From assembly GCA_003576905.1 (NCBI GenBank), contig QEVG01000037.1, forward strand, positions 1 to 46,719: DNA of 46,719 nucleotides. The letters run 5' to 3'. This document shows positions 20,653 through 41,374 of this stretch, piece after piece. The position numbers and the translations under genes were made by a program. Origin of the DNA: Planctomycetota bacterium (GTDB lineage: Bacteria > Planctomycetota > Phycisphaerae > UBA1845 > UTPLA1). The notes under the pieces were generated by a model. The model saw only the letters and a program-made list of their open reading frames with translations. It was not told the DNA's origin and did no database searches. Numbering within the stretch: position 1 is the stretch's first letter; each line of letters starts with the position of its first letter.

Positions 20653-22977
20653 ATGAACCCAACTCTTGCCGCCCTGCGACGGTTCCCGGTGATCCGGCTG
20701 CTGTCGAGCATTCGCTTCGGCGTCGGTTTGATGGTGCTGATTCTCGTGTATGCGTGCCTGGCGTCTGCGCTGCCGCAGGTGCGCGGGGCGCTCGAGATGA
20801 CCGAGATGCAGATCTTCCGGCACTGGACGTTCAGCGGAATGATCGTGCTGTTCGGGCTGTCCGTGATGGTGGCGACGCTGACGCGCATCAAGATGAGCTG
20901 GATCAACGCCGGGGTGCTGACGGTGCACACCGGGCTGATGATGCTGGTCGTCGGGTCAATCGTCTACTTCGCGACGAAGATCGAGGGGGATACGCTGCTG
21001 ATCTCGCCGAAGGTGCAACTGGTCAGTGTATCGGGGGGCTCGCAGCGGGTCATCGCGGAGGTACTGGCTGAAAAGGGGCAGTCGTGGACGAACCAGATGC
21101 CCGCGTTCGGGGGCCGCGTGGAGCTCTCGGTGCTGGACGTATCCTACGGCGAGGACGGGCTGATCCGTTCCGCGCGCGTTGCAGCCGCCATCGCGGGAGA
21201 GACGCGCGAGCTTGCGGTCGATCGCGGCAGCGACGCGGAGCTTGCGCCGGGGCGGTTGCTGGTTCGACTCGATCCGTCGCGCACGGTGGAGACATTCTAC
21301 GACAATGAGACGGCAGCGCTTTATGTGCGGAGGGGCGGCGGCGCGGAGACCGCGATGATTCCGATCGAAGGGCTGCCTTATTTTCGCGAGCGCTATCTAC
21401 CGGAACAGGGGGTAATCAAGGATGCGACGGGTAAGCCGGCAGCTTCCAAGCGAAGCCGTCCGGGCATTGACGTCGCGGGACGCACGGTATCCACGAAATT
21501 GCTGGAGGACTGGCGGCTGCCGATCGAGCTTGCCAGTGAGGCGATACCTTTTGACATTAAGGTGACGGGCTACCTGCCGTACATCGCGGGCATGATCTCG
21601 ACGCCGGTCGAGGGCGGCGGCGCGCTGAATCCCGTGGTGCAGGTCGGTCTGTCGGTGGGCACGACGTCGATCGATGAATCGCTGGTGGCGCTGGATCCGG
21701 CGCATTCGATGATGCCGCGCGGGATTCCGATCGAGTTCCGGTGGTTTGAGTCGGAGGCGGAGATGCAGGAGGCGCTTCGGCCGATGGCTTCGGCGCATGA
21801 GCTTCAGATCGAGGTGAAGGACCCGCCGCTGTCGAAGACGGTGGCGGTCGTCGCGGGGCAGACAATCAAGCTGGAGGGGACGAGCTACGAGCTGACCGTC
21901 AAGGACCTTCAGGCGAACTGGCCGATGATGACGCCGGGCTACGAGGGGGCGTCGTCGCCGATGGCCTCGGTGGACGTGAAAAGCGAGGGGAAGCGTTACA
22001 ATCGAACGGTGATTCAGCGCTTTGGGTCGCTGTCGCAGGACATCGACGAGCAGGGCGTTCGCCATCGGGAAGGGCCGTACGATCCGAACCTGGTGCTCCA
22101 GTATCGCACGAGCGAGGACGGCTGGGTGACGATCGCCGCCGGGCCCGGCATCGCGCCGCGGCTCGCGGTATTCGGTGCGGACGGATCGGTGGATGTAAAG
22201 CCTGTGACACTCGGCGAGCCGCGGGCGGTGACGATCATGTCCACGCCGCTTGACCTGACGGTTCGTTCGTTCGTTCAGAACTCGGAAATGGTGCTCACGC
22301 CGCTGGTCGAGCCGCTGGAGCGGCGGCGGCCCAACATCGCCGCCCGGTCGGCATCGGCGATTCGGCTCGTGCTGACGCCGCGCGGCGGAGAGGACCGCAC
22401 GCCGCGGACGCAGTGGGTCGCCTTCAGTCAGTATCCTTATACCGAGGCGCGGCCGATCCGGGTGCGGCTGCCGGGGATGACGGACGAATACGAGATCATC
22501 TACTCGCGGCTGGAGCGGTCGCTGAATGCGACGCTGATTCCGCGGAAGCTCAGCGTGAAGTTCTTCCCCGGCCGACAGAACGTCGAGTCGTGGCGGAGCG
22601 ATTTCCTGGTGCAGGCGGGACCCGGCGCGGCGCCGAGCCCGGCCGCGGTTTACACCAACCAGACATGCACGGCGGGCGGGTGGACGCTCTTTCAGAGCGG
22701 GGCGGCGGGGGACCACTGGAGCTACACGGTACTCGGCGTCGGGAATCGAAAGGGCATCTGGACGATGGTGCTCGGCTGCCTGCTGGTGACCCTGGGCAGC
22801 CTGTACGCGTTTTACGTGAAGCCGGTGCTCCTCAAGCGCCGGGCGGCGGCGGGCCGCGCTTCGGCGGGAACTTCGCGGGCACCGGTGGCGCGGGGTTCGA
22901 GCCCGGACGACGACGCGGACGGCGGGTATCAGGATCAGACTTCCCATGAAGACGAGCCGGCGGAGGTGCGGGCATGA
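20653..22977 (+). CDS. resB: Cytochrome c maturation protein ResB/Ccs1-like
   Basis: This 774-residue protein is the ResB/Ccs1 half of the System II apparatus, which holds apocytochrome and assists covalent heme attachment outside the membrane. It begins with transmembrane helices (VGLMVLILVYACLASALP; GMIVLFGLSVMVATLTRI; LTVHTGLMMLVVGSIVYFAT), followed by a large extracytoplasmic domain of over 500 residues and a last helix near the C-terminus (MVLGCLLVTLGSLYAFYVKPVLL), the ResB plan. It is longer than typical ResB (about 450-600) because of the extended soluble domain. AAGG lies 5 nt before the ATG. Its stop overlaps the CcsA start in ATGA, and eight multiheme cytochrome genes follow, which fits a dedicated maturation system. 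Confidence 0.85.
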   Translation: MNPTLAALRRFPVIRLLSSIRFGVGLMVLILVYACLASALPQVRGALEMTEMQIFRHWTFSGMIVLFGLSVMVATLTRIKMSWINAGVLTVHTGLMMLVVGSIVYFATKIEGDTLLISPKVQLVSVSGGSQRVIAEVLAEKGQSWTNQMPAFGGRVELSVLDVSYGEDGLIRSARVAAAIAGETRELAVDRGSDAELAPGRLLVRLDPSRTVETFYDNETAALYVRRGGGAETAMIPIEGLPYFRERYLPEQGVIKDATGKPAASKRSRPGIDVAGRTVSTKLLEDWRLPIELASEAIPFDIKVTGYLPYIAGMISTPVEGGGALNPVVQVGLSVGTTSIDESLVALDPAHSMMPRGIPIEFRWFESEAEMQEALRPMASAHELQIEVKDPPLSKTVAVVAGQTIKLEGTSYELTVKDLQANWPMMTPGYEGASSPMASVDVKSEGKRYNRTVIQRFGSLSQDIDEQGVRHREGPYDPNLVLQYRTSEDGWVTIAAGPGIAPRLAVFGADGSVDVKPVTLGEPRAVTIMSTPLDLTVRSFVQNSEMVLTPLVEPLERRRPNIAARSASAIRLVLTPRGGEDRTPRTQWVAFSQYPYTEARPIRVRLPGMTDEYEIIYSRLERSLNATLIPRKLSVKFFPGRQNVESWRSDFLVQAGPGAAPSPAAVYTNQTCTAGGWTLFQSGAAGDHWSYTVLGVGNRKGIWTMVLGCLLVTLGSLYAFYVKPVLLKRRAAAGRASAGTSRAPVARGSSPDDDADGGYQDQTSHEDEPAEVRA

Positions 22978-25154
22978 CGGCGATATGGTCGCGAGCGGCG
23001 AAGTTATGGATGGCGGTCGTGGTGTTCGCGGCGGCGCCGGCCGGGGCGGCGGATGAGCCGTTCGCGGCTTCGAAGAGCGCGGCGGCGCTCGACGCGCAGA
23101 TAGACTGGTCGCGGGCGCGGCTGATCGCGGTGCAGGACGACGGGCGGTACAAGACGCTCGACACCTTCGCGCGCGAGGCGTTCGGGGCGATGTACGGCAA
23201 GGAGCACCTGCCGGGTCTGTCGCCGGCGGCGTCGCTGATGGAGTGGCTGTTCAATCGCGACGCGTATCTGGACGCGCCGGTGATCCGGCTCAAGGACAAG
23301 GGGGTTCGGATACACCTTTCGGCGCACATGCCGGAGGCGGCGCGGCAGCGGATTCAGCAGACGGGCTACATGACGCCGCGCGAGCTGGCGGATCCGGTGG
23401 TGCAGCAGCGGATCGCGGAGCTGGAGCCGATGGCGCCGATGGTGACGGCGATGCGGCGGGTGCGCGGGGCCGAGGTCGTCTCAAAGTTCATGGACCAGAT
23501 GTTTCGCGTGGTTCCGCGGCCCCGCGGCAGCAGCGACGAACTGTGGCACACGATGCAGGAGCTTCAGGCGAATCTCCCGCCGGAACTGCTCGCCCGGGGC
23601 GGGTTGTTTCCGGGCATGGGCGGCGGCGCGGGGGATCCGATTGCGGGTATCAGCCCGGATCAGGCTGTCAAAGCTATGGCATTATGGGCCGGGCTGTGGA
23701 AGGGCTGGAGCGCCGGCGACGCGGAGAAGGTGCAGGGTGCGATCGACGGGCTGGCCGCGTTCCTGCCGAGTCTCGCGGGCGAGGGGGTTTATCCGGCCGA
23801 AGCGCAGCGTTCGGCGGAGGCGAGCTACTACGCCTGGGGCAAGTTCACCTGGGGCTACTGGATCTACATGCTGGGGCTGCTTTTGGCCGTACCGGCGGTG
23901 GTGACGCGGTGGCGGGCGCCCTGGCTGATATCGATGGGGCTTCTGGTCGCGGCGATGACGCTGCACGCCTGGGGGATCGGCCTGCGCTGGTTCATCCTGG
24001 GGCGGATACCCGTGGCGAACATGTTCGAGGCGATCGTGGGCTCCGCCTGGATCGGAATCGCAGTGGGCCTGCTGATCGAGTGGCGCTACCGGACGCGCTT
24101 CGCGCTGGTCGGAGCGCATGCGACGGGATTCCTGGCGCTGGTGCTGGCGGGGTATGTCGTGCCGGGCGGGGGGACGATCACGACGATCATGGGGATACTC
24201 GACGACGTGATGCTGCGGATTCACACGGTGCTGATCATCGCGTCGTACGCGCTGATTTTTCTCGCGTCGGTGATCGCGGTGATCTATCTTTTTGGATATT
24301 ACTATCACAAGTCAGCGGCACGGTCGGCGGAGTTCGGGGTGATCGGCGCGATCATGGGGATTGCCCTGTGGCTGGTGGTGGGCTTCGTGTTTCAGCCGTC
24401 GGCAGAGATGGCGGGGGATTTCGTCAAGAATCCGAAGGCGACGCTGGCATTCACGATCGCGGCGGTCGCGACAGTGCTGATGCTTACGCTGGTGGCGCGG
24501 CCGGGGGCATCGCCGAGGGCCATTGCGGGGCTGGCCGGCCTGCTGATCGCGTGCATCACGCTGGCCATCGGCAGCCGCGGCTTCGCCGAGGGCATGGCCT
24601 GGACAATGACCGGCGCGGGGACGCTCTGGGCCCTGGGCAACCTGACGGGCATCGCCCTGCGAAACCGCGCGGCGTGGATCGGCGGACCGGTTCCGGCATT
24701 GGCGGGAGCGGGGGCGAACGGGCGCCAGCGGGCCGGGGGCGCGGCGGCGGATCGTGCCATGATGGCGGCATCGGAGGCGGCGATGCACAAGCCGCTTCTC
24801 GCCGGGGCCCTTCCGGGCGATCGGGCGGGGGCGGCGGCGCTGCCCTTCTGGCTCCAGCAGGCTGACTGGTGCCATTTGATCATTCTTAACATGGTGTTCG
24901 TGATGCTCTTCGTCGGGACGATCCTCGGGGCGGTCTGGGCGGACTACTCCTGGGGCCGGCCGTGGGGCTGGGACCCGAAGGAAGTGTTCGCGCTCAACAC
25001 GTGGATCATCTACGCGATTCTCATTCACATGCGGTTCGTCACGAAGGACAAGGGGCTGTGGACGGCGTGGTTGAGCGTGGCCGGGTGCCTGATGATGGCG
25101 TTCAACTGGTGCTTCGTGAACTTCTACATCGTGGGGCTGCATAGCTACGCGTAG
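22974..25154 (+). CDS. ccsA: Cytochrome c maturation/heme-handling protein CcsA (ResC)-like
   Basis: This 726-residue polytopic protein is the heme-delivering half of System II. A signal sequence and a soluble domain of about 260 residues come first, then about ten transmembrane helices from residue 295 on. Conserved heme-ligand histidines lie in LHAWGIGLRWF (H331) and RIHTVLI (H417), with more near the C-terminus (H685, H723). The tryptophan-rich WWD-type motif is WADYSWGRPWGWDPKEVF at about 655-672. The long N-terminal domain and the soluble insert of about 80 residues around 570-650 make it larger than plant or Bacillus CcsA (about 320-400). It is coupled to resB by ATGA and faces the cytochrome genes tail to tail. 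Confidence 0.9.
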   Translation: MTAIWSRAAKLWMAVVVFAAAPAGAADEPFAASKSAAALDAQIDWSRARLIAVQDDGRYKTLDTFAREAFGAMYGKEHLPGLSPAASLMEWLFNRDAYLDAPVIRLKDKGVRIHLSAHMPEAARQRIQQTGYMTPRELADPVVQQRIAELEPMAPMVTAMRRVRGAEVVSKFMDQMFRVVPRPRGSSDELWHTMQELQANLPPELLARGGLFPGMGGGAGDPIAGISPDQAVKAMALWAGLWKGWSAGDAEKVQGAIDGLAAFLPSLAGEGVYPAEAQRSAEASYYAWGKFTWGYWIYMLGLLLAVPAVVTRWRAPWLISMGLLVAAMTLHAWGIGLRWFILGRIPVANMFEAIVGSAWIGIAVGLLIEWRYRTRFALVGAHATGFLALVLAGYVVPGGGTITTIMGILDDVMLRIHTVLIIASYALIFLASVIAVIYLFGYYYHKSAARSAEFGVIGAIMGIALWLVVGFVFQPSAEMAGDFVKNPKATLAFTIAAVATVLMLTLVARPGASPRAIAGLAGLLIACITLAIGSRGFAEGMAWTMTGAGTLWALGNLTGIALRNRAAWIGGPVPALAGAGANGRQRAGGAAADRAMMAASEAAMHKPLLAGALPGDRAGAAALPFWLQQADWCHLIILNMVFVMLFVGTILGAVWADYSWGRPWGWDPKEVFALNTWIIYAILIHMRFVTKDKGLWTAWLSVAGCLMMAFNWCFVNFYIVGLHSYA

Positions 25155-25238
25155 AGGGATCATGGGTTTGAGCGCTTGGAGCGGCTTTTGCGTGGTCGTG
25201 GAGTTGCCCGCTACTGCCTTACTCGAACAATCCATGGT

Positions 25239-26969
25239 CTATGGGGCATACGTGAAGTTCACGTGGTTGACGCCGTGGCAGGTTAGCGTGCAGCTCCCGC
25301 TGAAGTTGCCGGTGTCATTGTAGAACCTCTGGCCGCCCACGATGGTGAAGTCGAAATTGATGAGGTGGTCGTGCCGGGCGGGGCTGCCGGTCACTCCGTG
25401 GGGGGCGTGGCAGGCGCTGCACGGCGAGCGCGCGTCGACGATGTGCAGGCGATGGAAGCGGAAGCTCTCGTCGTTCAGGATCGAGTTTCGGTCGTGGCAC
25501 TGATAGCACAGGGCATAGGCCTGGGCCGTCTCGATGGTAAAGTCCGCCGTTTCATAGTTGGCGTTCAGCAGGAAGTCGAAGCGCGAGCCGTGCGGGCCGT
25601 TGGGGCCAAGGCCGCCAAGCTGGCGCGCGTCGGGGTTGTTGTGGCAGTCCTGACAACTGATGAGCGTGCGCGAGCGCTGTTCGGGCAGGAGGCTCGGCAC
25701 TTCGTTTCCGCCGCGGCTGGGGACGATCACCGGGTGGGCTGACGCGGCCGAAGCCTGCAACTCGCGGCGGATGTTTCCGATCGCGTCGCGCTGACGGATG
25801 ATCCGCCCCTCGACGGGAACGGGGTTGTCGGCATGGCACTTGAAGCACACTTCGTACTCAAAGCGGGCGCGGTCGACGAACGTGCCGGCGGCATTGATTC
25901 CTGACACGAACTCCATCGCCGGGGGGATGAGGTTTCCGCGATCGGCAAACTGGCGCGACGCGCCGAGGGGGTTCTCGCGGACGGCATGCGGGTTGTGGCA
26001 GTCGACGCAATCGACATGGGGTCGCATCGTCAAGGGGTCTTCGGCCGGGTCATGGCGGTCAAACAGGCGCTCGACGCGGTGGCCGCTGCGCTGGTTGGCG
26101 ACGCTGGAAAGGTCCCGCCCGGAAAGGCCGCCGTGGCAATCCATGCACAGGTCGTAGGATCGGCCGCGGAGCAGCCGCTCGGGGTGGTTCGCGTTGTGCG
26201 CGACGTGGCACGTGGTGCAGGCGGCGTCGGCCATTGAGCCGAAGGCGATCTGCTGGCCGTTGGTGACGGTCGGCGGGACATTCCGGGGTGAAAGGGCGTG
26301 CGCGCTGCGTGGCCAGCCGTCCATCTTGTGGCAGGTATTGCAGAGGGCGCCCTGGCGATCGGTGATGCGCAGGAAGTTGCCGAGCTCGTTGTTGTGCGGG
26401 TCGTGGCAGGCGATGCACTCCAGCTCGCCACGCTCGCCGAGCTTGATGCGATCGCTGACGAGGTCGGGCGAGCGCAGCTGCGGGTCGCGGTTGGAGAGCT
26501 GGCGGTCGTAACGGAAGCCGATCGGGTGGTCGTCGGAGAGATCGTTGGTGAGGTTGCTCGGGCCGGTGGGCATGAAGGGCTGATTCATCGCGATCGGGTC
26601 GGTCATCGGGCGGCTGAGGACAAGCCCCAGGGCGATGCTGCCGTCGTGGCACGAGAGACACATCTTGCTCGGCCCGCCGGGCTGATCGATGCGGGCGTCG
26701 GTCGTGCTGCTGGAATAGATGCGATAGTAGGTCGTGGGGTTGTAGCGGTTCCAGAGCGGGGCCTGCGGGTCGGCGTTGTGGGGGGCGTGGCAGAAGATGC
26801 AGACTTCACTTTCGTTGGCGGCGCGGACGGAGCCACGCCCGGACGTGGAAAGATTGTGCGGGCTTAGGACGACGCTTTCATCTCCGCGGGCCGCGCAGGC
26901 TGCGAGGAGCAGAACGGCGGCGGATGGGCCGGCGCAGCGGGTCAATCGGTACGTGTTCATTATGCCCAT
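25239..26969 (-). CDS. Dodecaheme c-type cytochrome lipoprotein (outer-membrane conduit candidate)
   Basis: This protein of up to 576 residues carries eleven CxxCH motifs and a twelfth, non-canonical CX3CH (SCTLTCHG) close to the C-terminus. Several sites are doubled CxxCHxxH types (CHAPHN, CHDPHN, CHNPH). A lipobox LLAAC at C25 predicts a lipoprotein, and no other transmembrane segment is seen. ATG at 26969 overlaps the stop of the NHL gene by one base; ATG at 26960 is also possible. It is the third gene of a coupled run: barrel, NHL lipoprotein, this cytochrome. By analogy with porin-cytochrome conduits it may sit in or against the barrel and carry electrons across the outer membrane. No catalytic domain is evident. 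Confidence 0.85.
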   Translation of the reverse strand: MGIMNTYRLTRCAGPSAAVLLLAACAARGDESVVLSPHNLSTSGRGSVRAANESEVCIFCHAPHNADPQAPLWNRYNPTTYYRIYSSSTTDARIDQPGGPSKMCLSCHDGSIALGLVLSRPMTDPIAMNQPFMPTGPSNLTNDLSDDHPIGFRYDRQLSNRDPQLRSPDLVSDRIKLGERGELECIACHDPHNNELGNFLRITDRQGALCNTCHKMDGWPRSAHALSPRNVPPTVTNGQQIAFGSMADAACTTCHVAHNANHPERLLRGRSYDLCMDCHGGLSGRDLSSVANQRSGHRVERLFDRHDPAEDPLTMRPHVDCVDCHNPHAVRENPLGASRQFADRGNLIPPAMEFVSGINAAGTFVDRARFEYEVCFKCHADNPVPVEGRIIRQRDAIGNIRRELQASAASAHPVIVPSRGGNEVPSLLPEQRSRTLISCQDCHNNPDARQLGGLGPNGPHGSRFDFLLNANYETADFTIETAQAYALCYQCHDRNSILNDESFRFHRLHIVDARSPCSACHAPHGVTGSPARHDHLINFDFTIVGGQRFYNDTGNFSGSCTLTCHGVNHVNFTYAP

Positions 26970-28030
26970 CAGGGTACATTCTCCGGGAGATATTGAAACA
27001 CCTGAACGCGGCGGTTGTAAGTATCCGCGATCCAGATTCGGTCCTGCACGTCGATGGTGATGCCGGAGGGCAGGTAGAACTCTCCGGGCTTTCGGCCTTC
27101 CTGGCCCCAGGCCATGAGCAGGCGGCCATCGGCGTCGAAGATCTGCACGTTTTCGAACTGGCTGTCGAGTACGTAGATGTGTCCTTCGCTGTCGACGGCG
27201 ACATCGCGGGGGAGGGCAAAATCTCCGGCGGCGTCGCCTTTTTTTCCAAAGGCCCGCTTGAATGCGCCGGATGCGTCGAAGATCTGGACCCGGAAATTCA
27301 TGGAGTCGGCGATGACGAGTCCGACGGCGTCGCTCCAGGTCATTCCCGCCGGGAAGTTGAATTCGCCGTCGCCGCTTCCGCGCTGACCGAACCGGCGCAG
27401 CTCGCGGCCGTCGAGGGAAAATACGATGCAGGCGTGCAGGGCGGCATCGAGAACATAGAGTTCGGAGGCCTCTTCGTTCCAGGCGAGGGCGGTTGGGCGT
27501 TTGAGCGATCCTTCGCCGATGGTTCGCGCGAGCGCGCCGCCGGTGTCGAACAGGAGGACGGCGGCGCGCTTGCTGTCGGAGACGATGAGTTTTTCGCCGA
27601 CGAGCAGGACATCGGAGGGCCAGTCGAGAGGCCTTGCGCCGGCGCGATCGATCGCGCGGAAGTCGCGGGACTGCATGTCGAGGATGTAGACGGCGTGATT
27701 CTGGCCATCGGCAACGAAGACCCGATCGCCGCGGGCGGCGACGGCGGTGGGCGTGGAGAATCCGATGGTCGGTTCGGGCCCGGCGATAAGGGCCCTCAGG
27801 CCGCCGAAGGGCCTGGGCTTTCCGAGGCTTGCCTCACCGGTGAGTTCGCCGACGTGGCGAATGCGGGCGGTGTCCGGGGGCTTGGGCCAGCGCAGCGGCG
27901 ACAGGCCGGCATCGAGAATCGGCCGGAGCGGCTGCTGGCAGGAGGCGGCAAGAGCGGCGCAGGCGAGCAGGGCGGCTCGTCCGAGGGACGTTAAGGCAGC
28001 GCGCCGGGCTGTGCGTATGCGAAGCTTCAT
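26969..28030 (-). CDS. Six-bladed NHL beta-propeller lipoprotein
   Basis: This 353-residue protein has a lipobox LAASC (C31) and then six NHL blades, of which the last three are clear (FPAGMTWSDAVGLVIADSMN; LPRDVAVDSEGHIYVLDSQ; LPSGITIDVQDRIWIADTYN). NHL propellers are scaffolds for protein, ligand or glycan contact, and NHL-repeat genes occur in several porin-cytochrome gene clusters. It overlaps the barrel gene by four bases and the dodecaheme gene by one, so its product is probably made in step with both. A structural role in the outer-membrane complex is inferred. No heme site is present, unlike its relative fused to an octaheme domain at 31193-33202. Confidence 0.88.
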   Translation of the reverse strand: MKLRIRTARRAALTSLGRAALLACAALAASCQQPLRPILDAGLSPLRWPKPPDTARIRHVGELTGEASLGKPRPFGGLRALIAGPEPTIGFSTPTAVAARGDRVFVADGQNHAVYILDMQSRDFRAIDRAGARPLDWPSDVLLVGEKLIVSDSKRAAVLLFDTGGALARTIGEGSLKRPTALAWNEEASELYVLDAALHACIVFSLDGRELRRFGQRGSGDGEFNFPAGMTWSDAVGLVIADSMNFRVQIFDASGAFKRAFGKKGDAAGDFALPRDVAVDSEGHIYVLDSQFENVQIFDADGRLLMAWGQEGRKPGEFYLPSGITIDVQDRIWIADTYNRRVQVFQYLPENVP

Positions 28031-30183: not shown

Positions 30184-30367
30184 GCGCGACCAGCGGGCCT
30201 CTAACAGATGGGCGGCGAATTCGATCCTGCAAAGTATGGCCTTACGGCGCAGCCTGTCCAGCGCTCGCAGGACGGAGCGGCGCCGCTTCGAGCCTCAGGT
30301 TGAGCGGATACACCCGACGCGCCCTCATTGCTGAAAACCAGGACCGCGCGGACAATGCACTCGACGC

Positions 30368-30396
30368 TTAACAGCGGCGCGGGGCCGTGGTATAGT
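30368..30396 (+). promoter_or_regulatory. Strong candidate sigma-70 promoter for the tetraheme gene
   Basis: TTAACA (30368-30373) and TATAGT (30391-30396) have an ideal 17-nt spacer in the divergent region between the barrel and tetraheme genes. The predicted start site near 30403 leaves almost no leader before ATG 30406 and about 18 nt before ATG 30421. Confidence 0.45.
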
Positions 30397-30405
30397 CGCG
30401 GCCTC

Positions 30406-31161: not shown

Positions 31162-31192
31162 CCGCGTCGGACCAACCGAGACCAGGATTGGG

Positions 31193-33202: not shown

Positions 33203-33244
33203 GCGCGTGCCGCGGGCGGCGCTCTTCGCGCACTCCCGAATCGG

Positions 33245-34555
33245 TCATTCGAATTCCTGGTGAACGCCGATGGCGATTTCGGCGGCGCGCTCGACGGAAA
33301 AGCTGAGCGTGGGGAGAGAGACGTCGTTGTGGCACCGGAGACAGACGAAGTCTACGGTGAGCGCGGCGCGGCCCTCGGCGTCCTTCACAACGCGCGTGCC
33401 GTCGGGCGTGAAGAAGCCGGTGTAGTCCAGCGGCTCGGTGGTGATGCGGAAGATGTGCGAGCGCGTGTCGCCCACGCGGGCCAGCGGACCGACCGCCGCG
33501 GTCGAGGCCGATGAACCGGACTTGACGGCATAGGGCATGTGGCAGCTTTCGCAGGTGAGGGTCTCGGTGTAGCCGTCGGTCGGCCTGACGAAGACCTTGC
33601 CCTCGTGCAGGGCCATGTTCTCCTCGGTGTGGCAGACCGTGCATTCATTGCGGATCGCGCCGGCCCGGTCGTACGACGTGCCGCGGTGGGGATCGTGGCA
33701 GAAGGTGCAGGCGAAGGCCGCATGTCCGCCGCTGGCGGCAAGTTCCTGCCATTGCGAGCGGGGGTTGATGAATCCGTCCACGCCGGTAATCTCGTCGGCC
33801 GGGCCGTCGAAGGGCGTGCTGTGGCATTGTTTGCAGGTCATTGCGCCGGGCGAATCCACAAAGATGTCCCGCGCGGACGGATTGGGAATGTGATTGGAGC
33901 CGGGCCCGTGGCACGCCTCGCATTGCACGCCGGCCTCGGCCCAGGTGCCGATGAAGCCGGGGCGGTTTTCCTGAAAGAGCGGGTTGGAGGGGTCCTGGGG
34001 GGCGGGGCCAGTCGTCTCATAGCGGAATCGATCGAAGTCGTACGGAAGCGGCGCCGCGGCGGTCGGTGCGAAGTCGGCGAAACCGGGCGTGGTGCCGTTC
34101 GGGGGGGTGTCGAGATTCCACTGCGTCGCCTTGCCGGTGAGCCCGGTCGTCAGAATAAAGCCGCCGTTGTCGATGAAGAGGGCGCGTTTGGCATATCCGC
34201 CAAGCAGGTAAGAGATGTCGGACCATGCGTAACCATCGGGGGGATTGGGTACGCCCGCCTGGTCGGCGGCGGCGGGGAAAGTCGGCGGTCCGCCCTGGAC
34301 GCGGTTGAGCGTAAAGGCGTGGGCATGCAGGGCGTACTGCTGGGCGATGTCGGCGTGGCAGGTCTTGCACGAGGTCGAGGTAAGAAAACTCGCCCCGCCG
34401 TTCGTTCTGTCGGTCGTGTTGTAATAGATCGGCAGCGTGGGCGTGTTGATGGTCACGACGTCGCACGCGCCGGAAGTCCATGCCGCGACAAGCGATGTCG
34501 CAATCACGACAGAGAGGACGCGGCGCGGGGCGACTCGAGGGGGGGCTTCATTCAC
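33245..34555 (-). CDS. Heptaheme c-type cytochrome
   Basis: This protein (436 residues from GTG 34555, with GGAG eight bases upstream) has a signal with SGAC that could be a lipobox, then seven CxxCH sites: CKTCH, CEACH, CKQCH, CTFCH, CTVCH, CESCH and CLRCH. The first part (CKTCHADIAQQYALHAHAFTLN) resembles the cytochrome c554-type start of perceived-electron-shuttle families, and CEACHGPGSNHI and CTFCHDPHRG recur in the two nonaheme neighbours. ATG at 34588 gives a longer form that lacks a visible ribosome-binding site. It is the last gene of a minus-strand run with both nonaheme cytochromes. A periplasmic carrier role is inferred. No catalytic motif is seen. Confidence 0.83.
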   Translation of the reverse strand: MNEAPPRVAPRRVLSVVIATSLVAAWTSGACDVVTINTPTLPIYYNTTDRTNGGASFLTSTSCKTCHADIAQQYALHAHAFTLNRVQGGPPTFPAAADQAGVPNPPDGYAWSDISYLLGGYAKRALFIDNGGFILTTGLTGKATQWNLDTPPNGTTPGFADFAPTAAAPLPYDFDRFRYETTGPAPQDPSNPLFQENRPGFIGTWAEAGVQCEACHGPGSNHIPNPSARDIFVDSPGAMTCKQCHSTPFDGPADEITGVDGFINPRSQWQELAASGGHAAFACTFCHDPHRGTSYDRAGAIRNECTVCHTEENMALHEGKVFVRPTDGYTETLTCESCHMPYAVKSGSSASTAAVGPLARVGDTRSHIFRITTEPLDYTGFFTPDGTRVVKDAEGRAALTVDFVCLRCHNDVSLPTLSFSVERAAEIAIGVHQEFE

Positions 34556-34596
34556 GCGGCATACTCCGTCGTTTCGCGAGGGGATCATCGCGTGCG

Positions 34597-35970
34597 TTAC
34601 CTGCCGATGCTCGTCAGAAGCCCCTGCGCGGTCAGGAGCATGTTGCGGGTGTAGCCTGGGTTGTGCACGCCGTAGCTGCCGTCGTACAGGGCGTAGTAAT
34701 ACAGGAATCGCACCTTCTTGAGCGTGTCGCGCTCGTCGGCGGTGCCGGCAATCGGCTGACCGTCGGCAGGTCCGCCGCAGCAACTGTATTCCCACGTGGC
34801 CGGATCGCCCAGGCGCGTCTTAACGTCGTCGAGCAATGCCTGGACGGAGGACCGGAGCGTGGCGGCGAGGGCCTGGGCGTTTTCGGCGGCGGGGTGACAG
34901 CCGGAAGCCACGCAGCCGGCGAAGTTGACTTCAAACGTGTGCCCGCTGATGGCGGGGGCGATTTCGCTCATGAAGTCCTGCCGGTACATGTGGCAGGAGG
35001 AACACTGCTCGCGCACGAGGGCATGCGGCGAGTTGACACTGAGTGTGAGCGGTTGGGTTCCGTCGGGCACGGGCATCTCGCCGACGTACACGTTGGACTG
35101 GACGCTGTGGTGCGGCGGGCGGGACGTGTCCTGCCAGGTGTTGCCGCGGCTGTGATGGCACTGGCCGCAGATGTTGAAGCGGGTGGGGTCGGTCGTGGCC
35201 GCAAGGGTGTTGGTCGCGGTCGGGTAGGCGACTTCGGGATATCGAAGCTGGTAATCGCGGCCGGAGTCGGCGAAGGGTGCGTTGCCGGTCCGTCCGTGCG
35301 GATCGTGGCAGGTCGCGCAGGCCACGGCGTTCATCTCCTCGCGGGACTTCCCGCTGAGGAGGTCGGCCGGGACGGACTGTCCTTCCTGAATGGCGAGGAA
35401 GCGGTAGTCGCCGGAGTGGCACGTCCCGCAACTGCTGAGCTGGTTGCCCTGTGCGAACGACGACGCCAGCGATTCGGTCACGAGGGCGTGGCCGGACTGC
35501 TGCCATTGTTCGAACGTGGGGTGATTGGCGCCGGTGTGGCAACGGCCGCAGACGGACGAAGCGATGTTCACGGGCGGCCGGAGGTTGATGTCGGCGACGT
35601 TCTCCACGTGATCGCGTCCCGGACCGTGGCAGCTTTCGCAGCCGACGCCGGCGAGGGCATCCGTGGTGGCCCGATTGACGAAGCCGCCTGATTCGCCGAA
35701 GCCGACGGTATGACAGCCGAGGCACTCGGCGTTTTCGCCCTGCCCCATTTCTTCCAGCGTGGCGAGTGCGCCGGAATGCAGCGTGGCAAGCCAGCTCGTA
35801 TGCGTATTCGCGTGGCACTGACTGCATCGCTCGGAGCCGATGTACTTGCCGGTGAGGCCTGAGTTTCCGGGCGGCTGGGGGCCGGGCGGCGGGCACAGGA
35901 GACCGAGGCCGGCGGGTGAAAGGAAACAAACCGCAAGGATGAGACAGCGAATGCTGGATGAACGTGTCAT
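34597..35970 (-). CDS. Nonaheme c-type cytochrome, c554-like, with terminal CX4CH
   Basis: This protein (457 residues from ATG 35970; GGAGAG just upstream) has a hydrophobic leader ending in LLCPPPG with a proline-rich linker. Eight CxxCH sites follow: CSQCH, CLGCH, CESCH, CGRCH, CGTCH, CATCH, CGQCH and CSSCH. The ninth is CX4CH (GCVASGCHP). The N-terminal GKYIGSERCSQCHANTHTSWLATLHS is cytochrome_C554-like. It is closely similar along its full length to the protein at 36238-37719, with all heme sites in register, and so arose by tandem duplication. ATG at 35991 is the alternative start. The heptaheme gene follows. The job is probably periplasmic electron transfer. Confidence 0.87.
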   Translation of the reverse strand: MTRSSSIRCLILAVCFLSPAGLGLLCPPPGPQPPGNSGLTGKYIGSERCSQCHANTHTSWLATLHSGALATLEEMGQGENAECLGCHTVGFGESGGFVNRATTDALAGVGCESCHGPGRDHVENVADINLRPPVNIASSVCGRCHTGANHPTFEQWQQSGHALVTESLASSFAQGNQLSSCGTCHSGDYRFLAIQEGQSVPADLLSGKSREEMNAVACATCHDPHGRTGNAPFADSGRDYQLRYPEVAYPTATNTLAATTDPTRFNICGQCHHSRGNTWQDTSRPPHHSVQSNVYVGEMPVPDGTQPLTLSVNSPHALVREQCSSCHMYRQDFMSEIAPAISGHTFEVNFAGCVASGCHPAAENAQALAATLRSSVQALLDDVKTRLGDPATWEYSCCGGPADGQPIAGTADERDTLKKVRFLYYYALYDGSYGVHNPGYTRNMLLTAQGLLTSIGR

Positions 35971-36161
35971 AGGCTCTCCGGCGTACTTCATGCTCCGTGG
36001 CGCGCGAGCCCGTCCACTGCTGGTATTTTAGGCTCGACCGGCCGTGCGGAACAGGTCCGGCCTTCGAGGATGAATCCACAATCCGGCAAGCGCTCGCGGC
36101 AATCCCGGAAAGCAAACAGCGGCGTGTTACCCTGAAGGGTCGCGCGCCGCTGTCGTTCGGA

Positions 36162-36224
36162 TGTTCCCTGCGAGCCGGGAACAGGTGGGGCGACCCGCGC
36201 GGTGAAGGGGTGACCGCGCGGGTC
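36162..36224 (-). terminator. Tandem hairpins after the first nonaheme gene
   Basis: A perfect 12-bp stem, GACCCGCGCGGT (36192-36203) with ACCGCGCGGGTC (36213-36224), has a 9-nt loop and lies 13 nt past the stop codon. A second 7-bp stem, TGTTCCC (36162-36168) with GGGAACA (36177-36183), follows. No T-run is present, so these may be attenuating or mRNA-stabilising hairpins. Confidence 0.45.
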
Positions 36225-36237
36225 GGAGGATCAGTAA

Positions 36238-37719
36238 CTACTGGACATCCGGCGCTTCATTCGCGTATTGCTCGGCAAGAATCAGAGCTTCGCGCATGTA
36301 GTCCGGGTTGTGGACACCGCCGCCGCCGCCATCCTTGAAGTAGTAGAGAATGTAGCGGGCCTTCTTGATTCCGTCGGGAATCTTGCCCTGACCGCCGGCG
36401 TTGTTGGCCGGGCCGCCTTCACTGGTGAATTCCCAGCATGGGCCGGTCGGAGCGGGGTTGAGCCCGGTGCACCATGTGACCTGCGCCGGGCGTGCGGCCC
36501 AGGCGTCCAGCGCCACTTCAACGAGATGGCTGCGGAAGTCAAACTCGACGGTGATGCCGGTGAGCTTGGCCTGTGCGTTTTCCTCGGAGCCGTGGCAGGG
36601 GACGCATCCGCCCATGTGCACCTCGAAGCTGTGGCCGGAGACGGCGGGGGCGATGCCCTCGACGAACGGCCGGCGATACACGTGGCAGGTGGAGCACTGC
36701 TCGGCCGTGTTCAGGTGGACGGAAGGTCGGCTTGGAACGATGGGCTCCAGGTTGCTCGCCGGCAAGGGCATTTCGCCGAAGAACACGTTGACCTGATCAC
36801 TCGGATGCGGCTCGCGCGAGGAGTCCGTCCAGACGCGGTCGCGCGTGTGGTGACACTGACCACAGAGGTTGAATCGCGATGGATCCTGTGCCATAGTCAA
36901 GTCCGTCGTCGGTGTCGTGTACTTGACGAGCGGATGGCGGAGCTGGTAGTCGCGCCCGTCGTCTGCGGTAGGGACATTGCCGGTGCGGGCGTGCGGATTG
37001 TGGCAGATGACGCAGGTGATGCCTGCCATCTGATCGCCCGTCAGGCCCGCCAGGGCGTTGTCGGGCACCGTCTCGCCCTTGATGATGGCGCGGTAGTAGT
37101 AGTCGCCGGAGTGGCACTTGCCACAGGAGTTTAGAGACGTTCCGTTGGCGAACCTCGGAACAAGTTCGGCGTTTACGGCGGCATGCTTGGACGTCTGCCA
37201 GTCCTCAAAGTTGGGATGATGCTCGCCGGTGTGGCATTTGCCGCAGACGTCAGCGGAGATGTTGAGCTTCGGTCGGAGTGCCTCGTCGTTGACGTTGGAA
37301 GCGTGGTCCCCCCCGGCTCCGTGGCAGTTTTCGCACTGAACGCCGGCGAGGGAGTTGGTCGTGGCGCGATCGACGAATCCGCCTGTGTCGCCGAAGCCGA
37401 CGGTGTGGCACCCGAGGCAGGCCGAATTGGTTCCCTGGCCGATTTCCTCGAGGGTTTCGAGGGCCTTGGAATGCAGGGTTCCCAGCCAGTCCGTGTGCAC
37501 ACCACTGTGGCACTGGCTGCAGCGAGCGGCACCGACGTACTTGCCGGTGAGGCCGCTGTCGCCTGTGGGTGGAGTGCCTCCGTTATCGCCGCCGTCGTCG
37601 GGCGGCGGGGTCGTTGAGGGACAGAGCATGCCAGCCATGGCCAGCGTACCTACGAGGAGTGCCATCGCCATCAAGCTGAAGGGGCGATGTCGGTAGAAGT
37701 GCGTCGCGTGCGGAGCCAT
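36238..37719 (-). CDS. Nonaheme c-type cytochrome, c554-like (paralogue)
   Basis: This protein (493 residues from ATG 37719, with AGGAG 8-9 nt upstream) has a signal (FSLMAMALLVGTLAMAGMLC) and a Pro/Asp/Gly-rich linker. Nine canonical sites follow: CSQCH, CLGCH, CENCH, CGKCH, CGKCH, CVICH, CGQCH, CSTCH and CVPCH. The segments GLTGKYVGAARCSQCH, CLGCHTVGFGDTGGFVDRATT and GRDYQLRHP are shared almost unchanged with the next gene. Its ninth site is normal CxxCH, while the paralogue has CX4CH there. A longer upstream frame (57 more codons) has no support. The -1 residue before the candidate lipid cysteine is Leu in both paralogues, unusual for a lipobox. A periplasmic electron-carrier role is inferred. 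Confidence 0.9.
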   Translation of the reverse strand: MAPHATHFYRHRPFSLMAMALLVGTLAMAGMLCPSTTPPPDDGGDNGGTPPTGDSGLTGKYVGAARCSQCHSGVHTDWLGTLHSKALETLEEIGQGTNSACLGCHTVGFGDTGGFVDRATTNSLAGVQCENCHGAGGDHASNVNDEALRPKLNISADVCGKCHTGEHHPNFEDWQTSKHAAVNAELVPRFANGTSLNSCGKCHSGDYYYRAIIKGETVPDNALAGLTGDQMAGITCVICHNPHARTGNVPTADDGRDYQLRHPLVKYTTPTTDLTMAQDPSRFNLCGQCHHTRDRVWTDSSREPHPSDQVNVFFGEMPLPASNLEPIVPSRPSVHLNTAEQCSTCHVYRRPFVEGIAPAVSGHSFEVHMGGCVPCHGSEENAQAKLTGITVEFDFRSHLVEVALDAWAARPAQVTWCTGLNPAPTGPCWEFTSEGGPANNAGGQGKIPDGIKKARYILYYFKDGGGGGVHNPDYMREALILAEQYANEAPDVQ

Positions 37720-37796
37720 CGTTCGTTCTCCTTGGAGCCCTGCTTTTAAGAAACCAAGTCCTCGCAGACCGACGGCAAGGGACTGTCTCGCGTCTT

Positions 37797-37819
37797 CATC
37801 GACGACCCATGCGTCGATG
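37797..37819. promoter_or_regulatory. 8-bp palindrome upstream of the nonaheme gene
   Basis: CATCGACG (37797-37804) and CGTCGATG (37812-37819) form a perfect inverted repeat with a 7-nt spacer, 78 nt upstream of the ATG at 37719. It could be a regulator operator or an mRNA hairpin. No second copy was found by eye. Confidence 0.3.
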
Positions 37820-38238
37820 CCGTTGTCGAATCGGGATGTCCTCTCACCGGCCGTTACCGGCCTGCAATCTGTTCTCTCGGACCTGTGCAATCGCCATGCC
37901 AGCGAACCACACTCTGCGGAAATCGCCCCGAGGCCCGTAGTGCGGAATTATCCCAGGGTGATCCGCGATTCCAAGCGGGAAACGCCCTTTTTTACGTGGC
38001 TGCATCCTGGCTCGGCGAAAAGTTTCGCCACGGAGGTGGAAAATTCCCCCAGTTCAACATCGGAGTGCAGCAACTTGCCGCCCGCCGACTTCTCTTTTGA
38101 ATTCGTTCATCCGGCATCGCAATATGCACGGATTTCGAGCCTGCCCGACACGTACGCCCTTGGCGCAAGTGCCATCGTCGGGGTCTCACCCGTTGGAAAA
38201 CCGGGGTTGAAATCATTGAAAGTACGGCACGGGATGTG

Positions 38239-38266
38239 TTGGTAATCCCGCGTCGAGAGTTATGAT
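38239..38266 (+). promoter_or_regulatory. Candidate sigma-70 promoter for the b/c-cytochrome operon
   Basis: TTGGTA (38239-38244) and TATGAT (38261-38266) have a 16-nt spacer. A start site near 38273 gives a leader of about 40 nt before the GTG at 38314. Confidence 0.4.
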
Positions 38267-38313
38267 GCCGGGCGTCAGGCGTCTGGGTCCGGTGCTGACG
38301 AGGGGCTGAATAG

Positions 38314-40245
38314 GTGACTGTTCCGGTCGACGCGATGATGGACCCGGCGAAACGCACACGGCGTGACGGGCGGGGAGAAACTGCCCGGCGAAACCGGGCG
38401 TGGATGGTTCTTCTGTTCGGCGGCGCATTTTTGCTGCCGGCAGCGGCTGCGCGGGCCGACGACCCGGAGAACTGCCTGATCTGTCATCAGTACCGCGGGC
38501 TTTCGCGCTTCGACGAAGCCAGCGGCCGGGCACACGTGTTTTTCGTCGATCCGCAGTATGCGCTGGCGCACCGCGGGCCGCACGGACGTCTGGCATGCAC
38601 GGCGTGTCACATCCGCGAAGAGGTGGAAGTCGTCCCGCATCACGCGGTGACGCCGGTTGATTGCACGCGGCAGTGCCACCTTCCAAGCACCACGGGGATC
38701 GAACGCCGGTTCAGCCATGACAACGTCATGGAGATGCTGGCCCGCAGCGCGCACAAGCCGGAGGAACTTTCCAAGCTGACCTTCAGCCGGGGACCGCTGC
38801 TGGCGGACAATCAGTCGATTTGTCTCTACTGCCACGATGAGCCGCTGTTTCGCGACCCGGCGCTGGCGATTCCGAAGTTCACGGAGCTTGCGGACCGCGT
38901 TTATGACCGGTGCGACGTCTGCCATGCCGAAAAGGTGGCGACGGACATCGAGTATTACGTGCGGCACATCGCGTCCCGCTTTCAGCCGGCGCGGACGCCC
39001 CTGGAGCTGGCCCAGGTCTGCGCGGTGTGCCACAGCGATCCGAAAGTGATGGCAGAGCGCGAGCTGCCGAATTCGGTGGCGAGCTTTGTGCGAAGCTTTC
39101 ATGGCAAGGCCGCGCTTCTTGGCGATTTCTCCACTGCCGACTGCCTCAACTGCCACGTCACGGCGGGCGAAAACGCGCACCTGATGCTTGCTCCGGATGA
39201 TCCAAAGTCCTCGGTGCACGTCGCCAACGTGGCGGAATCGTGCCGAAGCCTGGTGTGTCATCCCGGCGCGGATCCCAAGATCGCCGAGACGGCGGTGCAT
39301 CTCGACCTGCCGACGGCACAGGGCACGATTGAATACGCTCTTGCGGCGATCTTCATTGTCCTCACGATTCTGACGTTCGGGCCGTCGTGCATGCTCGTTC
39401 TGCTCGATCTGCTCCAGGTGATCGTCGGCCGTGAGGTGCACGGGGAGGAGCGGCTCCATGCGCTGGTCAAGAGAATCATGGAGGACCCGCGCGGAAAGCA
39501 TCAGCTTGTACGATTCTCGGTGAACCATCGCGTTCAGCACTGGGTTCTTTCGGCGCTGTTCATTCTCCTGGTGTTGACAGGCTTTCCGATGAAGTTCGCC
39601 GACGACTGGTGGGCCGCGCCGCTGGTCCGGATGTTCGGCGGACTGGGATGGGCACGGGTCATTCATCACTGGTCGGGCATCCTGCTCGTCCTCGGCTTTT
39701 TCGGGCACCTGGTGGACGTCTTCTTCGGATTTGTCAGCCGGGCGCGCGAGCTTGGCGGACCGCACGGCCGGGCGGACTATGTCAAGGCGTGGGTGTCGCT
39801 GCCCATGTGGATATCGCCGACGGACATCAAGAAGTCCATCCAGCTGATCCTGTACCTGATGTTCCTGCGCAAGGAGAAGCCCGCGTTCGGCAGATTCAGC
39901 CCCGCCGAGAAGTTTGAGTACCTCGGCGTATTCTGGGGGACGATGCTACTCGGCATCACCGGGCTGCTTCTTTGGGGTGAGCAGATCAGCTCGCATTTCC
40001 TGTCCGGGCGGGCGTTCAACCTGGCGACCATCGCCCACACCTACGAGGCGTTCCTGGCGGTGATTCACGTGGGTATCCTGCATATCTATAACGTGATCTT
40101 CGCGCCCAAGGTGTTCCCGCTTTCGACCGCGACGATGAACGGCTATACGCCGATCGCCAAGCTGGTCGAGGAGCACGGGGAGATGATCGACGAAGTCGCG
40201 CGCGACCTGGGAATCCGGGACGAAGGAGAGCCTTACCATGAGTAG
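38314..40245 (+). CDS. Octaheme c/b-type inner-membrane cytochrome, CbcL-like architecture
   Basis: This 643-residue protein has a signal peptide (cleaved near ARA|DD, residue 48) and an exported domain with eight heme sites: C54, C95, C117 (CX3CH, CTRQCH), C170, C200, C236, C277 and C310 (CX4CH, CRSLVCH). Five transmembrane helices follow at about 340-372, 403-428, 446-474, 534-556 and 572-597. Histidines H405, H409, H451, H452, H465, H575, H585 and H590 lie in or near the helices and could bind two b hemes, as in formate dehydrogenase gamma or cytochrome b561-type subunits. Fusion of multiheme c and di-heme b parts is the plan of Geobacter CbcL, an inner-membrane quinol oxidoreductase. The GTG start is plausible; ATG 38335 is the alternative. 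Confidence 0.85.
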   Translation: MTVPVDAMMDPAKRTRRDGRGETARRNRAWMVLLFGGAFLLPAAAARADDPENCLICHQYRGLSRFDEASGRAHVFFVDPQYALAHRGPHGRLACTACHIREEVEVVPHHAVTPVDCTRQCHLPSTTGIERRFSHDNVMEMLARSAHKPEELSKLTFSRGPLLADNQSICLYCHDEPLFRDPALAIPKFTELADRVYDRCDVCHAEKVATDIEYYVRHIASRFQPARTPLELAQVCAVCHSDPKVMAERELPNSVASFVRSFHGKAALLGDFSTADCLNCHVTAGENAHLMLAPDDPKSSVHVANVAESCRSLVCHPGADPKIAETAVHLDLPTAQGTIEYALAAIFIVLTILTFGPSCMLVLLDLLQVIVGREVHGEERLHALVKRIMEDPRGKHQLVRFSVNHRVQHWVLSALFILLVLTGFPMKFADDWWAAPLVRMFGGLGWARVIHHWSGILLVLGFFGHLVDVFFGFVSRARELGGPHGRADYVKAWVSLPMWISPTDIKKSIQLILYLMFLRKEKPAFGRFSPAEKFEYLGVFWGTMLLGITGLLLWGEQISSHFLSGRAFNLATIAHTYEAFLAVIHVGILHIYNVIFAPKVFPLSTATMNGYTPIAKLVEEHGEMIDEVARDLGIRDEGEPYHE

Positions 40246-41374
40246 CGAGGCTCAGCGCAAGATCTTCCGGAGAATCTGGGCGGTCGTCCGGCTCGCCGGA
40301 CGCTTTCTGCGCAATGCGGTGCCGCGCATCTACGCGACTGCCATCATGTTCGTGATTGTCTGGCTGACCTTCCTGGCGGTGCGGTATCTGGTCACGTCGC
40401 TGGCAATTGCATCGGGACCGCCACCGCAGATCGTGGCGCTGCCCACGCGGCTGGACCGCGCCGCGCTTCGAGAGGGCCGCTCGGCATTCGCCGCGCTGGA
40501 CGCTGCCGAGCACCCGCGTTCGCCGCTGGCGCACTATCACCGTTTGGGCGGCTGGGTTCAGCCGGACACGTTCAACGACTGCACACGCAGCGGGTGCCAC
40601 AATCCACTGCCGCACGCGAAGCGGAAAGAAGTACGCGCCTTTCTGAACATGCACGCCACAAGCATTCATTGCGGCGTGTGTCACATGGAAGGAGACCGAG
40701 TGCCCCGTCCGCTGGTGTGGTACGGCCTGGACGCAGGTAAGCCGGGCGATCCGCCTTCGCTGCTTCAGGCCTACGCCATGCTCACCGCGCCGGACGCGGC
40801 GTCGATGTGGAAGCGCGACGGCGACGCGGCGCAAAAGAAGTTAGTCCATCTCCTGAACTCCGCCGCAAGGGAGTCGGGTGATGTTCCGGCCCTTGCCCGG
40901 CTCGCGGAACACTTTGAGGCTTATCGCGTGGGCAGCAAGGCCTTTGACCAGATGCTCACGGACGGCCCCGCCGCGCTTGCGCGGCATTTTCGCGGGGAAT
41001 ACGGCGCGAAACTCGCGCTCCGGGACGAGAGAACGGGCCGACCGCTCCTGGGGCACCCGAACACCGGCCCGGCCGTCGCGGAGTGGTTTGCCCGCAAGGA
41101 TACGGCGGTGGGAGAGGAAGCGACGAAACTTCTCGAAGCGGTTCATCCCATGCGCCGGGCGTCCGCGCTGACCTGCACCGACTGCCACCGCACCCAGGGG
41201 TCCTTGATTGATTTTCCGAAGTTGGGTTATCCGGAGGCGCGAATACGCTCCCTGATCGATCCGGTCGTGTTTTCCATGATCGAGCATATCAACGCCGGGC
41301 GGCCGTTTAATCTGCCCGCCGTGCTGGGCGGCGCGCCGCTTCCGCCGCCCGACGTCGAGAAGAAGGCGCCCTGA
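40238..41374 (+). CDS. Membrane-anchored triheme cytochrome
   Basis: This 378-residue protein has a basic cytoplasmic end, one transmembrane anchor (IYATAIMFVIVWLTFLAVRYLV, about 31-52) and an exported domain with three heme sites: CX4CH (CTRSGCHNP), CGVCH and CTDCH. The third lies about 190 residues after the second, and the helical part between them has no recognised motif. The gene overlaps the b/c-cytochrome gene by eight bases, so the two are probably co-translated subunits of one membrane complex. A NapC-like role, taking electrons from the b/c subunit to periplasmic carriers, is a reasonable guess, but the number and spacing of hemes differ from NapC. Confidence 0.8.
   Translation: MSSEAQRKIFRRIWAVVRLAGRFLRNAVPRIYATAIMFVIVWLTFLAVRYLVTSLAIASGPPPQIVALPTRLDRAALREGRSAFAALDAAEHPRSPLAHYHRLGGWVQPDTFNDCTRSGCHNPLPHAKRKEVRAFLNMHATSIHCGVCHMEGDRVPRPLVWYGLDAGKPGDPPSLLQAYAMLTAPDAASMWKRDGDAAQKKLVHLLNSAARESGDVPALARLAEHFEAYRVGSKAFDQMLTDGPAALARHFRGEYGAKLALRDERTGRPLLGHPNTGPAVAEWFARKDTAVGEEATKLLEAVHPMRRASALTCTDCHRTQGSLIDFPKLGYPEARIRSLIDPVVFSMIEHINAGRPFNLPAVLGGAPLPPPDVEKKAP

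Follow-up and report, generated by a model that had tools for sequence, protein, structure and literature searches.

The stretch of planctomycete DNA considered here (contig QEVG01000037.1, 46,719 nucleotides; hereafter the window) carries, between positions 20653 and 41374, eight multiheme c-type cytochrome genes beside a large barrel protein and two propeller proteins. Two of the cytochromes, C and F, belong to the family of OmcE, and this likeness is the basis of the electron conduit considered below. The genes that we discuss as parts of the system are as follows, with CxxCH sites given before CX3CH or CX4CH sites where two numbers are joined.

C, 25239..26969, minus strand: dodecaheme cytochrome, 11 CxxCH and one CX3CH site (motif counts, structure model)
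OmcE-like tetraheme module of C, 26325..26918, minus strand: residues 18-215, matching PDB entry 7TFS
Octaheme domain of C, 25242..26324, minus strand: eight heme sites from residue 251 on, with a PF22113 match at residues 367-531
F, 30328..31161, plus strand: OmcE-like tetraheme cytochrome, predicted lipoprotein (homology, four CxxCH sites and four distal histidines)
E, 28027..30183, minus strand: large outer-membrane beta-barrel of no Pfam family (structure model, structural neighbours)
D, 26969..28030, minus strand: NHL beta-propeller, predicted lipoprotein (PF01436, E 5.3e-23; lipobox LAASC)
G, 31193..33202, plus strand: NHL propeller fused to an octaheme domain, predicted lipoprotein (domain scans)
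H, 33245..34588, minus strand: heptaheme cytochrome, possible lipoprotein and probable barrel partner, most likely starting at ATG 34588
I, 34597..35991, minus strand: nonaheme cytochrome, 8 CxxCH and one CX4CH site, c554-like (PF13435, E 1.2e-17)
J, 36238..37890, minus strand: nonaheme cytochrome, diverged paralogue of I at 55% identity, with a doubtful TTG start
K, 38314..40245, plus strand: octaheme (6+2) domain fused to a b561-type membrane domain (PF01292, E 1.6e-12)
L, 40238..41374, plus strand: triheme (2+1) cytochrome with an N-terminal hydrophobic segment read by eye, overlapping K by 8 nucleotides

A six-frame scan and counts made protein by protein give 55 CxxCH and five CX3CH or CX4CH sites in the eight genes (C 11+1, F 4, G 8, H 7, I 8+1, J 9, K 6+2, L 2+1), reproducing exactly the total of the preliminary description, whose gene boundaries and per-gene counts also agree with ours. 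When the residues of the same eight proteins were shuffled 500 times, CxxCH arose 0.26 times on average (at most 3) and CX3-4CH 0.53 times (at most 4), and frames of more than 60 amino acids outside these genes carry single heme motifs only. Several of the odd-spaced sites are probably real heme sites, since they are conserved in relatives. As to the layout, E, D and C form one minus-strand operon with overlaps of 1-4 nucleotides, from which F and G diverge at E; J, I and H all lie on the minus strand, the start of H 8 nucleotides past the stop of I.

Residues 18-215 of C match 7TFS (E 8.6e-30) and a second solved cytochrome, 9YUQ (E 7.2e-26); 7TFS is the filament cytochrome OmcE of Geobacter sulfurreducens, as given by PMC12954529 and by the title of the PDB entry. 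In the AlphaFold2 (AF2) model of C (predicted local distance difference test score, pLDDT, 86.6; predicted template modelling score, pTM, 0.84) the OmcE fold occupies residues 37-215, which VIA-align superposes on 7TFS over 173 residues at 36% identity (Z 13.1, root-mean-square deviation 2.8); the rows below 7TFS are weak, the next-best having Z 3.8, though other relatives may exist. Foldseek recovers the same match (E 8.6e-10, TMt 0.69). By sequence and by model, C is an OmcE module joined to an octaheme domain; over the whole of C the Pfam scan reports generic heme domains only. A possible lipobox in C ('LAAC') was rejected, its cysteine not being conserved in homologues.

The conservation of C was followed over 80 loci (these and the other loci named here are numbered with L), the best-scoring of at least 348 relatives found by a C-alignment scan of named genomes rather than a random sample. 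Alignment A3 holds 62 of the 71 listed C proteins and that of the window, which leaves 18 of the 80 loci unrepresented. Eleven of the twelve heme motifs are invariant in these 63 rows and the fourth motif is present in 62; the CX3CH site is kept in 63/63 and also in 14 of the 18 loci outside the alignment, the remaining four being L119 and L125, which end at a contig end, and L124 and L128, which are without it. The hemes of C are thus conserved across 12 phylum-level groups, as grouped by record title. Four CxxCH sites and four distal histidines, placed as in OmcE, are shared by the C and F of the window and 66 further rows (68 rows, 66 distinct sequences), in which the first histidine was a selection criterion and the second stands at 90%; six tetraheme rows of the second F-like set without H[DN] before the first heme, and cores of 260 residues or more, were excluded. 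We found no description of the 12-heme C family in the literature searched, which missed key OmcE and filament studies, and it may already be published. On this sequence and model evidence we regard C as a candidate adaptor between filament and conduit.

The second OmcE-like protein, F, matches 9YUQ (E 1.6e-8) and 7TFS (E 1e-7), with its distal histidines at residues 117, 137, 211 and 252 counted from the TTG, though an internal ATG near residue 32 is the likelier start. Described earlier as an outer-membrane tetraheme protein, F can now be given more precisely as predicted to be lipid-anchored. A lipobox-like cysteine stands 41 residues ahead of its OmcE core; a cysteine of this kind lies 38-42 residues before the core in 9 of 19 rows of the planctomycete set (window counted) and in 0 of the 47 analysed rows of the other F-like set (53 listed, six without the HD/HN motif left out), most of which have a normal signal peptide, with its end only a few residues away from the core. 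By prediction, F is not a plain secreted, non-lipidated subunit. When the C module was searched against the same genome, 97% complete, no further OmcE-like protein came up at E<=1e-3. Instead of a long free filament, the lineage of the window may thus rely on an OmcE-fold protein that is tethered.

The outer-membrane barrel of the preliminary description is borne out by the AF2 model of E (pLDDT 87.8, pTM 0.80), in which we count by eye about 28-30 long strands, more than the 26 strands of the MtrB barrel. Family-library scans gave E no Pfam or NCBIfam match. Among the 50 rows listed for the model, the longest alignment is with MtrB (6R2Q_B, 451 residues, Z 14.2), but the rows with higher Z are ordinary transporters, and the Foldseek matches are generic outer-membrane barrels with low TM-scores; the modelled fold of E is therefore that of an outer-membrane barrel, and its finer function is not given by structural matches. 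The barrel alignment (A2) comprises 54 of 55 listed barrels and that of the window. Both D and G have NHL repeats, as previously noted, and both are lipoproteins by prediction. The NHL and eight-heme parts of G are separate frames in L042, L043, L117 and L160-L162. We note that contig C58 of the same genome contains, near 29929-30852 (L142, L143), an open frame of 1106 amino acids with about 20 CxxCH sites and, by eye, an NHL-like start, and that both same-genus relatives have, next to K-L, a 20-heme protein with a match to G.

For H, the earlier placing as a periplasmic heptaheme protein needs correction. The first gene recognised upstream of the barrel in L065, L117 and L160-L162 codes for a homologue of H, and the own genome yields seven partial matches and no full-length one to the 5-heme lipoprotein that neighbours the barrel in other phyla. 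Because of both observations, H probably replaces the 5-heme lipoprotein, and, occupying that protein's place, it is probably the partner of the barrel. Among 61 genomes of the genus, family and order (the genome of the window is included in this and the following genome counts), a match to I at E<=1e-40 is present in 34 and a match to barrel E in 44.

K joins a b561-type membrane domain with a multiheme c domain, as do proteins of the CbcL/CbcBA kind, and judging from its sequence is probably a quinol:cytochrome c oxidoreductase; no solved relative was found at E<=0.01. The 6+2 sites of K and the 2+1 sites of L are constant in the K-L regions of 16/16 relatives examined; in L065, 8+3 sites stand in one K frame, as many as K and L have together. 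Full-length K and L occur together in 32 of the 61 genomes, at most 4 kb apart in 28 of these; as to the four non-adjacent pairs, those of genomes G036 and G059 are adjacent through a second match and that of G016 lies at contig ends. Barrel and full-length K are both present in 31 genomes, the barrel alone in 13, K alone in one and neither in 16 (Fisher p 5e-6, uncorrected for kinship). These co-occurrence counts take one barrel, one L, one full-length K match and nearly always one I per genome, omitting second copies and weaker or b-domain-only K matches. Within 10 kb of C, K is matched in 15 and L in seven of the 80 loci, and split K homologues, with L, lie near C in the Pseudomonadota loci L100, L101 and L109.

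The 80 C relatives come from Planctomycetota, Verrucomicrobiota, Bacteroidota, Pseudomonadota, Acidobacteriota, Nitrospirota, Thermodesulfobacteriota (including a metagenome-assembled genome (MAG) of Geobacteraceae) and others, by record titles of which some on MAGs may be wrong. C at E<=1e-40 is present in at least 21 of 392 genomes of the phylum, a lower bound given that three candidates were scored per genome. In the tree of 63 C proteins that of the window groups with two Phycisphaerae/Phycisphaerales MAGs (support 100/100), in agreement with the planctomycetal host suspected from the start, the nearest named C homologues being Phycisphaerae MAGs; most phyla fall largely together, with 14 label changes (minimum 11), and Pseudomonadota and Acidobacteriota are scattered.

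Around C, the barrel/NHL/12-heme core recurs across these phyla. The gene directly upstream of C codes for an NHL protein in 71/80 loci (48/51 of those with at least 6 kb upstream), and a barrel recognised by the E profile is within 10 kb in 61/80 (42/51 by the same measure); a 5-heme-profile protein is nearby in 60/80 (44/51) and an OmcE-like tetraheme protein in 50/80 (43/51), the commonest order being OmcE-like, NHL, 5-heme, barrel, NHL, 12-heme. Nearer to the window, I-H-E-D-C-F-NHL-8heme-K-L form a single co-directional run in genomes G039, G036 and G021 (L160-L162), although L162 has an additional 12-site cytochrome frame between the eight-heme gene and K, and L160 has additional genes ahead of H; a similar run that includes K and L is present in L117. 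With L065 this makes five relatives whose counterparts of H, E, D, C, F, G and K stand in one co-directional run; four of the five have a recognisable I, and four have L as a separate frame. The homologues are thus not always split among unrelated loci; had they been, the single conduit would, by the preliminary description, have been weakened. From these sequence comparisons we assign H, I, K and L to the planctomycete set.

Several side observations concern these neighbourhoods. L128, L131, L133 and L135 (Acidobacteriota, Nitrospirota) have C and NHL without an E-profile barrel despite room, perhaps having a diverged barrel. A 13+2 heme protein of about 460-520 amino acids recurs beside the C cluster in several phyla (L063, L075, L086, L098, L104, L124 and others), and in the gammaproteobacterial loci L121, L125, L126 and L129 two small 3-heme proteins take the place of the 5-heme protein. 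The isolate-named records of Desulforhopalus sp. IMCC35007 (L086) and Carboxylicivirga marina N1Y132 (L115, where the order differs) have the full six-gene set, and the system may therefore be testable in culture.

Accessory to the system is a putative pair of maturation genes, overlapping by 4 nucleotides.

A, 20653..22977, plus strand: probable ResB-like System II cytochrome c biogenesis protein, accessory (position)
B, 22974..25154, plus strand: CcsA/ResC-type cytochrome c assembly protein (PF01578, E 2.2e-18)

Of the System II maturation pair put forward earlier, the assembly protein B stands by its PF01578 match, its score against TIGR03144 being 138.7 bits, below the cut-off of 187.6. 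A has no Pfam or NCBIfam match, and we call it probably ResB-like from its position and hydrophobic segments read by eye, so that A and B together are a probable cytochrome c maturation pair. They adjoin the core only sometimes; an A homologue lies beside B and C in L028 and L031. Some 75 nucleotides after L on the same strand, M (41449-44511) combines FAD-linked oxidase and 4Fe-4S domains (Pfam) in the manner of D-lactate/glycolate dehydrogenases and could feed the quinone pool; we left it out of the system because no homologue was shown in the K-L regions of the 16 relatives. At 18178-19827 lies an ordinary gene for a FAD-binding protein with a succinate dehydrogenase-type C-terminal domain (Pfam), probably L-aspartate oxidase.

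We consider it fairly probable that the locus is an OmcE-type extracellular electron conduit of a planctomycete, probably one of the class Phycisphaerae, with outward flow. This reading builds on the OmcE homology of C and F, the conserved hemes of C, the conserved set of OmcE axial histidines, the barrel fold and the conserved neighbourhood, as given by sequence or model. The co-directional runs with K and L, the co-occurrence of barrel and full-length K, and the probable maturation pair nearby also speak for it. Let us assume an outward direction, a topology in which C sits at the barrel, and the order of transfer that follows. K, with its b-type membrane domain and eight c hemes, and the anchored triheme L would oxidise quinol and supply the electrons to three multiheme proteins, I, J and H. 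Standing beside the barrel, H would hand them through E, on the far side of which they would enter C and move from its octaheme domain to its OmcE-type tetraheme module, which perhaps can pair with F. The NHL propellers D and G would be structural partners that organise or cap the assembly. As a more tentative extension, C might be a widely conserved, unnamed adaptor that links filament and membrane conduit covalently: its OmcE module would attach to an OmcE-type filament or seed one, and its octaheme domain would be inserted in the barrel complex. The free filament subunit would, in this planctomycete lineage, have given way to the lipid-tethered OmcE-fold protein, and the wire would be a short membrane-held extension.

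A number of observations weigh against the conduit so conceived. The direction of flow is not readable from sequence. Of the 31 genomes with both barrel and K, only 8 have the two within 20 kb of each other, and both same-genus relatives split the set into C-D-E-F-G (L027, L028) and H-I facing K-L (L149, L150), so that of the complete extracellular electron transfer locus first proposed, the set is well supported by comparative genomics but its single locus is not universal. No barrel was recognised in 19 of the 80 C loci; ten of these have less than 6 kb upstream, and the nine with room (L057, L062, L116, L127, L128, L131, L133, L134, L135) include two of Phycisphaerae. In L057, whose C is closer to that of the window than any other named relative (67% identity), no other family of the set was recognised within 10 kb. 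Lastly, because F is predicted to be lipid-anchored and its genome gave no second OmcE-like protein, a long free filament is doubtful.

The main alternative, which we judge unlikely though deserving of attention, is that the E-D-C core is chiefly a secretion or assembly station for OmcE-type subunits, with C as a chaperone-like template or tip protein, the electrons crossing the membrane elsewhere; such a role has been proposed for the OmcS companion (osc) genes. Their eight-gene block GSU2500-GSU2493 has been reported, in PMC12977616, to be linked to OmcS maturation and secretion, and the tetraheme subunit genes share the gene run of C in many phyla, as such a station would have it. The octaheme domain of C, however, contributes eight conserved hemes beyond the OmcE module, and electron transfer therefore fits it better than templating; moreover, the 5-heme protein or H beside the barrel resembles a conduit partner, and a Pfam search confined to the window found no peptidyl-prolyl isomerase (PPIase) family among the 18 window proteins scanned. 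The core may of course be both conduit and export or assembly station.

Conduits of such kind can be bidirectional, and the chain could run inward, with Fe(II), minerals or partner cells as the electron donors, which we think improbable. The three COX1-family genes of the genome (contig C62 at 116050, contig C44 at 7834, contig C61 at 87622) would suit such a direction; they suggest, from their sequences, oxygen or nitric oxide reduction alongside extracellular transfer, and acceptors other than extracellular ones are therefore probable. On the other hand, inner-membrane bc cytochromes such as CbcL have been linked to outward flow in Geobacter (PMC12307469), K being like CbcL in its combination of domains. 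It is more improbable still that at least one of H, I and J is a catalytic multiheme enzyme of the nitrite or sulfite reductase kind, the cluster then serving periplasmic respiration. I does score above the PF02335 cut-off (35.3 against 24.1 bits) and weakly matches octaheme nitrite reductase (E 0.00068), but none of the eight cytochromes has a CxxCK motif, so that I is without the catalytic NrfA heme; its best solved relatives by sequence are OcwA (6I5B) and c554, that of H is OcwA, and a barrel and OmcE-fold proteins would have no evident role there.

PMC10553843 describes as poorly understood the route by which electrons pass between cytochrome filaments and the cell interior. Being part OmcE filament subunit and part octaheme protein, and encoded in many phyla next to a barrel and a propeller, C is an immediate candidate for the link between filament and cell. 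Its distribution also points to OmcE-type electron transfer far beyond Geobacter, going by record titles in Planctomycetota, Verrucomicrobiota, Bacteroidota, Acidobacteriota and gammaproteobacteria that live as symbionts of marine animals. The 12 near-invariant heme sites make C a marker missed by domain annotation.

How does the locus compare with known systems? The preliminary description did not recognise its combination of genes by name, but it is recognisable since C and F belong to the OmcE family. With the OmcE filament (7TFS) the N-terminal module of C and F share the four CxxCH sites and four distal histidines, and C also the fold; they differ in that the module of C is fused to an octaheme domain and F has a predicted lipid anchor and a linker of about 40 residues. 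The likeness to MtrCAB lies in a large outer-membrane barrel with multiheme partners, E aligning with MtrB as barrels generally do; PF11854, however, has no match in E, nor at E<=1e-3 anywhere in the genome; a scan of ten window proteins, which covered neither F nor I, gave no score up to the cut-off of the DmsE family TIGR03508, and judged by sequence the locus is not MtrCAB. Geobacter CbcL and CbcBA are inner-membrane bc cytochromes, which K resembles in joining multiheme c and b-type membrane domains, but K travels with the triheme L. The osc cluster (GSU2500-GSU2493), which we take to encode a beta-propeller and a channel together with a filament-type cytochrome, and whose PPIase is presumably OscH, is matched, as far as its description goes, by the NHL beta-propellers D and G and the barrel encoded with an OmcE-type cytochrome; the window genes differ in having no hexaheme protein, PPIase match or 16- or 26-heme protein, and a 12-heme protein with an OmcE module instead. 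OetABI of the sulfate-reducing partners of anaerobic methanotrophic archaea (PMC10553843) likewise comprises a barrel with periplasmic and outer cytochromes and is linked to filament-type cytochromes; the available part of that description does not include a 12-heme OmcE fusion or K/L. Compared with the known OmcE/OmcS-type systems, and as far as the literature searched shows, what appears to be new here is the OmcE-octaheme fusion, the predicted lipidated OmcE-like protein and the linkage to K and L.

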